Assembly: GCF_000226315.1 (NCBI RefSeq)
Contig: NC_016026.1
Coordinates: 1,302,001-1,366,000, forward strand
Length of the DNA stretch: 64,000 nucleotides
Direction of reading: 5' to 3'
Source: Micavibrio aeruginosavorus ARL-13
GTDB lineage: Bacteria; Pseudomonadota; Alphaproteobacteria; Micavibrionales; Micavibrionaceae
A program made the position numbers and the translations under genes. Each line of letters begins with the position of its first letter. Position 1 is the first letter of the stretch. Shown one piece after another: positions 5,937 through 51,549 of the stretch. The notes beneath the pieces were generated by a model. That model ran no database searches, was not told the origin of the DNA, and saw only the letters and a program-made list of their open reading frames with translations.

Positions 5937-6704
5937 TTATTGCACCGCTTTGGCAATAGCCAGATATTGGTCCGCCTTTAAACTGGCCCCGCCGATCAGG
6001 GCCCCGTCCACATCCGGAATAGCCAGCAATTCCCCGGCATTCTCCGGTTTTACCGACCCGCCATACAAAATCCGCACCCCGGCCCCGTCCGCCATTTTCC
6101 CCACCAAAATCCCGCGGATAAAAGCGTGCATGGCTGCAACATCCGCCGGGGTCGCCGTTTTGCCCGTGCCAATGGCCCAGACCGGTTCATAGGCAATCAC
6201 CGTATTCGATGCCGTTGCCCCAGCCGGGATCGATCCATCAAGCTGTTGTTTTACAATTGTTTTTTCTTGACCCGCCACGCGCTGCGCCTCGGTTTCCCCG
6301 ACGCAGATAATGGTCATCAACCCCGCCTGATGCGCCTGAACCGCCTTGGCGGCCACGGTTTGGTCCCCCTCCGCATGGTGCTGGCGGCGCTCGGAATGGC
6401 CCAGAATTACGGCGGAACAGCCCACATCTTTGAGCATCGGCGCGGCAATATCCCCGGTGAATGCACCCGTCTCATGGGGCGAACAATCCTGCCCGCCAAC
6501 GCGCAAAGCGCCGCGATTATGGTCAATCACGGCCCGGACGGCCGGAATATGGATAAAGGTAGGGCAAACCAGAAAATCGCAGCGATCCAGCAAGCTGGCA
6601 TCTTTTTCCACGCCATCAATTACGGCCTCGGCCAATTGACGAACGCTGACCAGCGTTCCGTGCATCTTCCAATTTCCAGCAATCAGCTTTTTCTTCGTCG
6701 TCAT
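5937..6704 (-). CDS. tpiA: Triose-phosphate isomerase
   Basis: This enzyme interconverts dihydroxyacetone phosphate and glyceraldehyde 3-phosphate in glycolysis and gluconeogenesis. The 255-residue protein has the conserved N-terminal AGNWKMHGT (Lys13), the catalytic histidine in LGHSERR near residue 100, and the catalytic glutamate in AYEPVWAIGTG near residue 170, with the phosphate-binding loop that follows. It is the first gene of the tpiA-secG-pyrG unit. The terminator of the small upstream gene ends about 50 bases before its start, so its own promoter must lie in that short gap or within the small gene. Confidence 0.97.
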   Translation of the reverse strand: MTTKKKLIAGNWKMHGTLVSVRQLAEAVIDGVEKDASLLDRCDFLVCPTFIHIPAVRAVIDHNRGALRVGGQDCSPHETGAFTGDIAAPMLKDVGCSAVILGHSERRQHHAEGDQTVAAKAVQAHQAGLMTIICVGETEAQRVAGQEKTIVKQQLDGSIPAGATASNTVIAYEPVWAIGTGKTATPADVAAMHAFIRGILVGKMADGAGVRILYGGSVKPENAGELLAIPDVDGALIGGASLKADQYLAIAKAVQ

Positions 6705-6756
6705 GGCATCGCCCCATCAAAAAATAAGACCGACAGAATACATACAACACGGCATT

Positions 6757-6783
6757 AAAAAAAGCCGCCCGAAGGCGGCTTTT
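6757..6783 (-). terminator. Terminator of the 38-codon gene
   Basis: A perfect 9-bp stem (6761-6769 with 6774-6782) closes a four-base loop. On the minus strand it is followed by a run of seven T. It lies 25 bases after the stop codon of the small gene and before tpiA. Confidence 0.85.
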
Positions 6784-6807
6784 CTGAATTGATCAATTCA
6801 AAATGTT

Positions 6808-6924
6808 TTAAATGGCCGGTTTCGGCGCGTTCACTGGTGTGCGAACAGCAGCTTCCGGAGCCTTGGCAACCGGTGCTTCGTTCTTTGTTGCAGTTGTAAA
6901 TTCAGTAGCAGCTTCTTTTTTCAT
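6808..6924 (-). CDS. Small basic Ala/Pro/Lys-rich protein, 38 residues, unknown function
   Basis: This short frame begins MKKEAATEFTTATKNEA and ends VNAPKPAI, with many Ala, Pro, Lys and Glu residues and no Cys, Trp or membrane segment. It looks disordered. I do not recognise the family. The case for a real gene is contextual. A strong ribosome binding site GAGGAG (6931-6936) lies six bases before the ATG. A plausible sigma-70 promoter (6967-6994) precedes it. A stem-loop with a T run follows the stop. The gene stands alone between tpiA and the divergent ppiD. It could be a nucleoid- or RNA-binding peptide, or the transcript itself may be the functional product. Confidence 0.7.
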   Translation of the reverse strand: MKKEAATEFTTATKNEAPVAKAPEAAVRTPVNAPKPAI

Positions 6925-6966
6925 ATTACACTCCTCTAGTTGTTAGGGTTTTTAGCTACAGGACGT

Positions 6967-6994
6967 ATCGTAATAACACTTGGGAAAAACACAA
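6967..6994 (-). promoter_or_regulatory. Putative sigma-70 promoter of the 38-codon gene
   Basis: On the minus strand, TTGTGT (6989-6994) and TACGAT (6967-6972) are 16 bases apart. The predicted start of transcription gives a leader of about 36 bases before the ATG. Confidence 0.45.
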
Positions 6995-7007
6995 TCGGAA
7001 ACAAACT

Positions 7008-7026
7008 TTATCCGCACTTATGCACA
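7008..7026 (+). promoter_or_regulatory. Tandem DnaA-box-like sequences
   Basis: TTATCCGCA (7008-7016) and TTATGCACA (7018-7026) lie in the same orientation ten bases apart. The second fits the consensus TTATNCACA exactly and the first differs at one position. They lie in the divergent region between the small gene and ppiD. Two boxes alone do not make an origin. Confidence 0.3.
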
Positions 7027-7069
7027 GATCAAAAAACTGCGGACATAAAGGCCGAAACACGCCAAGCGG

Positions 7070-7098
7070 TTGCACAAAGACCGCATCGTTTCTATAGT
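7070..7098 (+). promoter_or_regulatory. Putative sigma-70 promoter of ppiD
   Basis: TTGCAC (7070-7075) and TATAGT (7093-7098) are spaced by 17 bases. Transcription would start near 7105, about 37 bases before the chosen ppiD start. This argues against using the upstream in-frame TTG at 7070. Confidence 0.6.
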
Positions 7099-7141: not shown

Positions 7142-9064
7142 ATGATGCGGTCCATGCGCGAAGGCGTTCATTCCAAGATCATCAAAATTGTTCTGTTCGG
7201 CTTGCTCACCATGGCTGTGTTCGGATTGGTCTTGATGGATGTTGGCGGTTTTTTCCGTGGCGGTATGGGCAACACCAACGTCGCCACCGTCGCCGGGTCA
7301 TCCATTTCCAGCACGGAATTCCAGCGTCATGTCCAACGCGTTTTATCCAATCAGGGAATTACACCCACGGACGCCTATAACTTTGGGTATATCGATCAGA
7401 TTTTGGACAATGAAATCGCCCGCACGGTGATTTCAAACGCAACAGTCGATCAGGGCGTTCTGGTGGGTGACGATGCTGTCGCCAAACAAATCAACACCAT
7501 GATTGCTCCGTTGTTGCAAAGCAATCCGGAAGCGTCGAAGAAAGATATCCTGCAACGCGTTTTGATGAACCAAGGCATTTCCGAAACCGAATTCGTCAAC
7601 GCCATTCGCCATGAAATTGCCAACAGCACCCTGCAATCCGCCATTCAGGCGGGTGGTGCACTGGTGACACGTGACGAATTGGTGGCGCTGTACCAATTGC
7701 GCAACGAAAGCCGCAGCATCAACGCCATCATCCTGAAAAATTCCGATATGACAGATATCAAACCGGCGGATGAAGCGGTTCTGACCGTGTTTTACGATGC
7801 CGCCCGCGCCCGCTATGCCAAGCCGGAAACACGCAGCATGACCATCGCTGTCCTCAGCGAAAAGCAAGTACGCGATACGATGGATATTTCCGATGAAGAA
7901 TTGCGGATCGAATATGACCGCAACATTGCCCAGTACCGCACGGCGGAAAAACGCGTCCTGCAACAGGCCGTTCTGATCGATCAGGCGGATGCCGAGGCCG
8001 TGAAAGCCAAAATGGATGCAGGCGCAACACTGAAAGACGCCGTCAAATCCCACACGGGTAAAACCGACGCCTATCTGGGCGAAAGTGAATTTGAACGGGC
8101 CGGATTGATCGAAAACATTGCCAATGGCGCATTTGGCGCAAAAGTTGGTGATGTCGTCGGCCCGCTCGAAACTCCGCTTGGCTGGCACATTTTGGTCCTG
8201 ACCAAAATCAATGCGCCCGATACAACGCCGTTTGAAAAGGTTAAAGCCGATCTGAAAAAAGAATTGTTACAGATCCGCCTGTCCGACGAAATCCTGGCCA
8301 CCGCCAACCAGATTGATGACCGACTGGCCGCCGGCGAATCACTGGACGACATTGTGAAATCAATGAATCTGGACGTGACCAAAATTGGTGCCGTTCATAA
8401 CGATGGATCAACGCCGGACAAAAAAGACGGCATGACTGCGTTTGATAAAGATCGCGGTGCCATCCTCGAAACCGCATTCAGCGTCGAAGCTGGCGAAACC
8501 GCCCCGGTCATGGAAATCTCCGGCGGGCGTTTCGCGGCGGTGCGTGTTGATAACGTAACCCCCCTCTCCTACACCCCGTATGAAGAGGTGAAGGACGAAA
8601 TCGCCAAAGGGTGGATGGACGACCAACGTGCCACCGCCAACCGCGACCGCGCACAGAAATTACAACAAGCTGTCGCCGGTGGTGAAAAAACGCTTGAGCA
8701 AGCGGCCAAGGATCTGGGGTTAAGCGTACAGACATTCAGCAACATCAAAGCTGGCGCAGAACCGAAAGCCCCGATGAGCACCGCCACGCTGGCCGCTTTA
8801 TTCGACGGCGTGCAGGGCGAAACCATGATGGCCCCGGTTGATGGTGGCTTTATGGTTGGAACCATCACCGCAATCAATATCCCGGTGGCTGATAAAATCA
8901 GCGACCAGGATTTGCGCCCAATTTCGGATTCCATCACCCGTACCGCCGGAAATGAATTCATGGCTGTATATGTGCAACATCTGGAAGATAAATACGGCGT
9001 CAAAATCAACCGCCGCATGCTGGATCTGATGTTCGGGCCGGAAAGCGGAACAGTGGCGCAGTAA
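7142..9064 (+). CDS. ppiD: Membrane-anchored periplasmic peptidyl-prolyl isomerase, PpiD-like
   Basis: This 640-residue protein is a PpiD/SurA-type folding factor for exported proteins. It has a short cytoplasmic tail MMRSMREGVHSKIIK and one membrane anchor at about residues 15-37. A SurA-N-like chaperone region follows (TVAGSSISSTEFQRHV onward). A parvulin-type PPIC domain lies around residues 230-355, ending in the conserved PLETPLGWHILVL strand. The C-terminal region contains a second, degenerate parvulin-like stretch. The start is the first of two consecutive ATGs, because the longer frame begins inside the promoter. GAAGGG at 7124-7129 is a possible, slightly distant ribosome binding site. 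The gene is divergent from the small 38-codon gene. Confidence 0.88.
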   Translation: MMRSMREGVHSKIIKIVLFGLLTMAVFGLVLMDVGGFFRGGMGNTNVATVAGSSISSTEFQRHVQRVLSNQGITPTDAYNFGYIDQILDNEIARTVISNATVDQGVLVGDDAVAKQINTMIAPLLQSNPEASKKDILQRVLMNQGISETEFVNAIRHEIANSTLQSAIQAGGALVTRDELVALYQLRNESRSINAIILKNSDMTDIKPADEAVLTVFYDAARARYAKPETRSMTIAVLSEKQVRDTMDISDEELRIEYDRNIAQYRTAEKRVLQQAVLIDQADAEAVKAKMDAGATLKDAVKSHTGKTDAYLGESEFERAGLIENIANGAFGAKVGDVVGPLETPLGWHILVLTKINAPDTTPFEKVKADLKKELLQIRLSDEILATANQIDDRLAAGESLDDIVKSMNLDVTKIGAVHNDGSTPDKKDGMTAFDKDRGAILETAFSVEAGETAPVMEISGGRFAAVRVDNVTPLSYTPYEEVKDEIAKGWMDDQRATANRDRAQKLQQAVAGGEKTLEQAAKDLGLSVQTFSNIKAGAEPKAPMSTATLAALFDGVQGETMMAPVDGGFMVGTITAINIPVADKISDQDLRPISDSITRTAGNEFMAVYVQHLEDKYGVKINRRMLDLMFGPESGTVAQ

Positions 9065-32814: not shown

Positions 32815-32854
32815 TGTATTTACGTCCTTTTTTCCGGTTTAACCTCTGCGGAGC

Positions 32855-32880
32855 GTGATTTTTGAACCATTCAAAAACAC
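32855..32880 (-). other. Inverted repeat in the rpsB leader
   Basis: TTTTTGAA (32859-32866) and TTCAAAAA (32870-32877) form an 8-bp stem with a three-base loop, extended by GTG/CAC around one bulged base. It is within the rpsB 5' leader. S2 autoregulation through a leader is known elsewhere, but I cannot match this to a described structure. Confidence 0.3.
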
Positions 32881-32937
32881 CGGAGGGAGCGCCAAAATGA
32901 CGAATCCCAATCCCCGCATGTGGATTTAAGTGCGTGT

Positions 32938-51334: not shown

Positions 51335-51549
51335 GATGTATCAAACAGCACTTTTTTGTTTTGCACCAAGCAGATGGACCCGTTTGGCGGCGTTGCCCCT
51401 TTCTAGTATGACCAGCGCCGCACCGCAAGGTCCGTATCTGTGCAAATCCACGAATATTTCTATTGATTTTTCCCCGCCGCCGGAGAAGAATGCGAACAGA
51501 CTTGCGTATGCTATTTCTTCTTTTTAATCAAATCACTAGGACGAAACCC

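Follow-up and report, generated by a model that had tools for sequence, protein, structure and literature searches.

A candidate small-protein gene restricted to Micavibrio aeruginosavorus in the gap between tpiA and a ppiD-like gene

A 38-codon open reading frame (ORF) lying between tpiA and a divergent ppiD-like gene of Micavibrio aeruginosavorus ARL-13 is, with a probability of about two in three (0.67), a real and independent small-protein gene, restricted to this species as far as our searches reach. The stretch of DNA analysed, 64,000 nucleotides long and referred to hereafter as the window, corresponds to G000:C1:1302001-1366000 of the single-contig genome G000 (2,481,983 bases), and is compared below with G002, a close genome of 2,458,610 bases, which we take to be another M. 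aeruginosavorus strain. A stand-alone 38-codon gene had been proposed by a first-pass annotation of this DNA, and a short gene of this kind is the best-supported reading, on the basis of a gene-like coding score, the codon choice and the frame kept in G002; neither the promoter nor the ribosome-binding site by itself rises above chance level, and selection on the coding sequence is not demonstrated. If the gene is real, transcription would begin near 6960 and stop at the 6757 terminator, giving an RNA of ~200 nt, the good ribosome-binding site would drive translation of the 38-residue protein, and the product would be a disordered, basic, cytosolic peptide which, at a guess, works by binding a partner, be it nucleic acid, the ribosome or a protein. 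Such a gene would resemble the orphan small-protein genes in having fewer than 50 codons, its own ribosome-binding site and no family match, as well as in being confined to one species and acquired in the space between conserved genes; it would differ from them in nothing essential. One likely orphan small protein is hereby added to a predatory bacterium, which by itself is an ordinary find. Most of the highly expressed attack-phase genes of M. aeruginosavorus are reported to be hypothetical (PMC3189940). Among the literature matches listed, as represented by their titles and the beginnings of their abstracts, the locus is not described in work on M. aeruginosavorus or on alphaproteobacterial small proteins.

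Locus anatomy and signals against chance expectation

The features of the locus are collected in Table 1. The 117-base frame with its ATG, stop codon, GAGGAG and terminator is present as the first-pass annotation described it, on the minus strand, which had been left unstated, and the domain matches of the two neighbours fit their naming as tpiA and ppiD. The promoter of the ppiD-like gene is read as TTGCAC-17-TATAGT at 7070-7098.

Table 1. Features of the tpiA-ppiD region, in window coordinates.
Feature	Position	Strand	Description
38-codon ORF	6808-6924	-	ATG at 6924 to TAA, stop at 6808; 117 nt; product MKKEAATEFTTATKNEAPVAKAPEAAVRTPVNAPKPAI
Ribosome-binding site GAGGAG (core AGGAG)	6931-6936	-	6 nt 5' of the ORF's ATG
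Weak promoter-like pair TTGTGT-16-TACGAT	6967-6994	-	3/6 + 4/6 = 7/12 consensus bases; hexamers at 6994 and 6967
Intrinsic terminator	6757-6783	-	Perfect 10-bp stem, UUCG loop, then T-run
Perfect palindrome TGAATTGATCAATTCA	6785-6800		Between the ORF stop codon and the terminator
Gap between terminator and tpiA start	6705-6756	-	52 nt; holds weak promoter-like TTGTAT-15-TATTTT (7/12)
tpiA (triose-phosphate isomerase)	5937-6704	-	Same-strand downstream neighbour; Pfam TIM, E 2.2e-85
ppiD-like gene	7142-9064	+	Divergent upstream neighbour; SurA-like N-terminal domain and PPIC rotamase

The signals around the frame are of unequal weight. A promoter-like pair with hexamers 16 bases apart does exist where it had been described, but at 7/12 it is no better than chance: since the 216 bp upstream of the ORF hold four pairs that score 7/12 or more, where shuffles lead one to expect 6.3, the pair is not evidence for a promoter, and the best pair upstream is another one (8/12, at 7032-7005). 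The terminator is a hairpin of the form AAAAGCCGCC-TTCG-GGCGGCTTTT at 6783-6760, with a run of seven T ending at 6757 and a folding energy of -15.5 kcal/mol, and nothing else in the window matches its sequence when up to three mismatches are allowed. A consensus terminator scanner does not include the hairpin at 6783-6760 in its list, probably because some of the T-run is taken up into the stem. In the predicted fold of the RNA, the ribosome-binding site is mostly paired (mean pairing probability 0.69) and the ATG is not (0.14).

For the background frequencies, 400 kb of DNA surrounding the window were sampled, a codon model was trained on the long frames found there, and the 116 intergenic pieces that measure 120 bp or more (37.6 kb in all) were set apart; the gene calls behind the intergenic and the coding statistics come from simple home-made callers. 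The intergenic set contains 163 ATG start-stop pairs of 30-59 codons, against 168.6 in shuffles, and a ribosome-binding site of at least five bases precedes 7 of the 163, against 6.0 of 168.6, which is chance level for the site alone. Ribosome-binding site and coding score taken jointly give a different picture, as they single out only two of the 163 real pairs against a mean of 0.017 frames per shuffled set, and just one of the 60 dinucleotide-shuffled sets had any such frame; the threshold was the score of the candidate ORF itself, and the figure is hence an after-the-fact chance of something equally good. When all start codons and lengths of 20-59 codons are admitted, 42 of 1,034 start-stop pairs carry a ribosome-binding site, among which this ORF ranks second by coding score, and it is one of the two out of these 42 with a terminator-like site in a scripted hairpin test. 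The earlier contention that so complete a set of signals around so short a frame is unlikely to be accidental holds for frame, site and coding score considered together, but not for the promoter or the site considered singly.

These figures bear on the view that the ORF is open merely by chance and lies in a regulatory gap, without being translated or having a transcript of its own. That promoter and ribosome-binding site each occur at chance frequency would be expected of such a frame, as would its being shared with one genome only and the lack of demonstrated selection on the protein. Against it stand the joint signal, met with only 0.017 times per shuffled 37.6 kb, and the singularity of the hairpin sequence within the window, so that we regard a chance frame as very improbable.

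The second of the two frames with the joint signal lies outside the window, at G000:C1:1459040-1459171 on the plus strand (L180:19040-19171). It is a membrane-like frame of 43 codons with the ribosome-binding site AAGGAG, has the best coding score of the 42 listed small frames, and differs from G002 by seven synonymous base changes and one changed codon. No Pfam match was obtained for it; its sequence features make it a likely real small gene.

Coding statistics and the predicted peptide

The coding score of the ORF, +7.0 bits, is equalled or exceeded by 86% of 2,962 real gene segments, whereas only 0.2% of the 2,000 shuffles without stops reach it, and only 1.1% and 0.9% of gene segments that are open out of register; 38% of segments read antisense and in register to genes attain it as well. 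Per codon, the ORF ranks sixth among 219 intergenic frames of 30-59 codons. The frame that lies on the opposite strand at 6812-6946 was rejected as a real gene, as it scores -16.6 and lacks a ribosome-binding site within the preceding 25 bases.

The codon choice of the ORF leans towards that of ribosomal-protein and elongation-factor genes, on a scale trained on 23 genes of the ribosomal-protein region that were picked by eye (103 segments). It is matched by 75% of these 103 highly expressed segments, which are the training set itself, by 4.9% of ordinary gene segments, and by two of the 219 intergenic frames, this ORF included. When the same protein is encoded with ordinary codon use, the codon choice of the ORF is equalled in 0.7% of 5,000 draws, a share that becomes 2.0% when the base composition is that of intergenic DNA; the signal rests largely on the alanine codon GCT, which serves for five of the ten alanines. 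Judged by its codons, the ORF would probably be highly expressed.

The product had been characterized as rich in Ala, Pro, Lys and Glu and as matching nothing known. The count gives 10 alanines, five prolines and five lysines, together with five threonines, and the search gives no family at all up to E = 10 in Pfam, NCBIfam or PHROGs. With a pI of 9.4 and a GRAVY of -0.44, the peptide contains no C, D, G, H, L, Q, S, W or Y and no membrane-like stretch, and AlphaFold, run from two sequences and thus on a shallow alignment, returns a pTM of 0.13 and a mean pLDDT of 68.8; such values would be expected of a disordered peptide and, at this alignment depth, are weak evidence that the product is probably unstructured.

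Weak tblastn matches of the peptide were obtained at 18 loci, with E values of 0.005 and worse. At 14 of them, a frame with a GPGAF motif runs on the opposite strand at the match; the matches at L005, L011, L015 and L019 (E 0.04-0.5) are without the motif. The corresponding GPGAF-frame protein of G000 matches Pfam PF00814 and is read as TsaB, and the weak matches in G032 and G119 likewise sit opposite a tsaB-like frame. The likeness between the ORF and TsaB-like genes is confined to these weak peptide matches opposite the GPGAF frame, with no relation at the DNA level: in a comparison with the copy in G000, an equally high score is obtained from 8.4% of shuffled sequences, and the relation was dismissed as a coincidence.

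Conservation and origin of the tpiA-ppiD gap

The DNA of the ORF is present in two of 104 family genomes, and the peptide finds a match at E <= 0.01 in four of 142 genomes of the order, namely G000, G002 and, weakly and partially, G032 and G119. A tblastn search, the means by which conservation of the frame was to be judged, thus recovers it intact in G002 and yields no credible match elsewhere among the 142 order genomes. In G002 the ORF has the same start and stop, no indel and 92% identity, the stretch from GAGGAG through the ATG is identical, and both promoter-like hexamers are unchanged. Frameshifts in homologues, which according to the first-pass annotation would count against a gene, are absent from G002, the only homologue found. 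This intactness by itself says little, because among the 24 small frames that have a ribosome-binding site and could be aligned, 13 are intact in G002.

A comparison of the codons in this one genome pair gives three synonymous and three changed codons (P = 0.18), and selection on the protein is not demonstrated. When seven random substitutions are placed in the ORF, the frame stays intact in 77% of trials, of which 18% show three or fewer amino-acid changes. By region, identity to G002 amounts to 29/29 (100%) at 6757-6785, 51/52 (98%) at 6705-6756, 110/117 (94%) in the ORF and 65/70 (93%) at 6925-6994; since the flanks are about as conserved as the frame, coding selection is not demonstrated here either. 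The excess of third-position changes (four of the seven substitutions) was likewise rejected as proof of coding, as there are too few changes and the opposite-strand frame shares the third positions. In tpiA, 677 of 765 positions are identical, and third positions are changed at 67 of about 255 (26%), against 4 of 39 in the ORF. Intergenic DNA of the window diverges from G002 by 11% on average, and 6705-7069 by 6.3%. Elsewhere in the window, a 128-bp intergenic stretch at 51335-51462 diverges by only 2.3% compared with the same mean of 11%.

The slow change of the region relative to the third positions of tpiA is also what would be expected of a non-coding RNA of ~200 nt, or of an RNA with a second role, in which the open frame is incidental. 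The strong terminator and a folding z-score of -2.67 point in the same direction, but the folding surplus is likely owed largely to the terminator and palindrome hairpins, and intergenic DNA of the two genomes is slow in general, as the 11% in the window against 26% at tpiA third positions indicates. In addition, Rfam gives no match at or above a family cut-off, the 15 matches below threshold all fall on the terminator hairpin at least in part, and under this explanation the coding score and the codon choice would have to be coincidences. A non-coding RNA is therefore considered unlikely, and the small-protein gene is preferred.

The palindrome between the ORF and the terminator was considered as a shared regulatory element and discarded. 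Its 14-base core, GAATTGATCAATTC, has only one other exact copy in G000, which lies inside a YmdB-family gene, and in G002 there are one other exact copy and one copy with a single mismatch.

The surroundings of tpiA suggest how the gene may have arisen. Of 58 genomes, 53 have a tpiA match, and the comparison covered 30 loci, 28 of them from relatives; a ppiD-like gene stands beside tpiA in 26 of these 28 and is absent from the locus in L130 and L133. By sizes extrapolated from tblastn ends, the tpiA-ppiD gap measures about 437 bp in G000 and about 433 bp in G002, against about 52-195 bp in 25 of the 26 relatives. The motif ACTATA occurs near the start of the ppiD-like gene in 10 of 14 relatives' gaps tested, and reads as a part of that gene's promoter. 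Because the gaps of relatives are short, the best reading is that the M. aeruginosavorus lineage gained some 300 bp here, with the ORF and its terminator. As for a mobile origin, the peptide has no match in plasmid or phage records, in searches that filter low-complexity sequence. The remaining relative of the 26 (L147, in G020) has a gap of about 729 bp upstream of tpiA, with a GGGGCC...GGCCCC hairpin adjoining an A-run, which may reflect a separate gain between these genes in another lineage.

A possible attenuator upstream of tpiA

tpiA lies on the strand of the ORF and begins 52 nt beyond the end of the terminator, an arrangement that brings to mind a leader peptide and attenuator of tpiA, in which the transcript would run into tpiA whenever the terminator fails to form. 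In such a scheme, codons 4-9 of the ORF (GAAGCUGCUACUGAAUU) would pair with AAUUCAGAAAAGCCGCCUUC, which comprises the 3' half of the palindrome and the 5' arm of the terminator; a ribosome occupying the early codons would leave the terminator able to form, and read-through would follow when no ribosome is there. The predicted gain from this antiterminator pairing is -7.3 kcal/mol in G000, a value that 1.7% of 300 shuffles of the upstream sequence equal. G002 is predicted to form these pairs too, but with a gain of no more than -3.6, close to the -2.8 that shuffles give on average. The pairing was, moreover, found after looking, spans more than 100 nt, and has to compete with a terminator that alone amounts to -15.5. 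Below the Rfam thresholds, the best match, at 6814-6755, is likewise to a family of leader-peptide attenuators (Phe_leader; 32.8 bits, cut-off 55), yet it covers the hairpins only and not the ORF. Attenuators of the trp and pyrBI type share with this locus a short ORF, an intrinsic terminator and a metabolic gene on the same strand, whereas here the peptide lacks a run of control codons, no single amino acid being repeated more than twice in succession, and the antiterminator is weak and unequal in G002. The short distance between tpiA and the divergent gene in 25 of the 26 relatives, as well as the weak promoter-like pair of tpiA's own that stands after the terminator, further argue against it. 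An attenuator for tpiA is accordingly possible but not favoured, and we hold it to be an unlikely alternative to the independent small-protein gene.

The two functions might also be combined in a species-specific, translation-controlled switch, with the 38-codon frame serving both as an abundant small protein and as the sensor of the attenuator. We consider this highly unlikely; if true, it would tie tpiA and glycolytic flux to translation capacity as the predator moves between its attack and attachment phases. Among RNA elements of the window, the Rfam rpsB RNA (RF01815) is found at 32820-32922 on the minus strand, directly 5' of the gene for ribosomal protein S2, where such a feature is expected.
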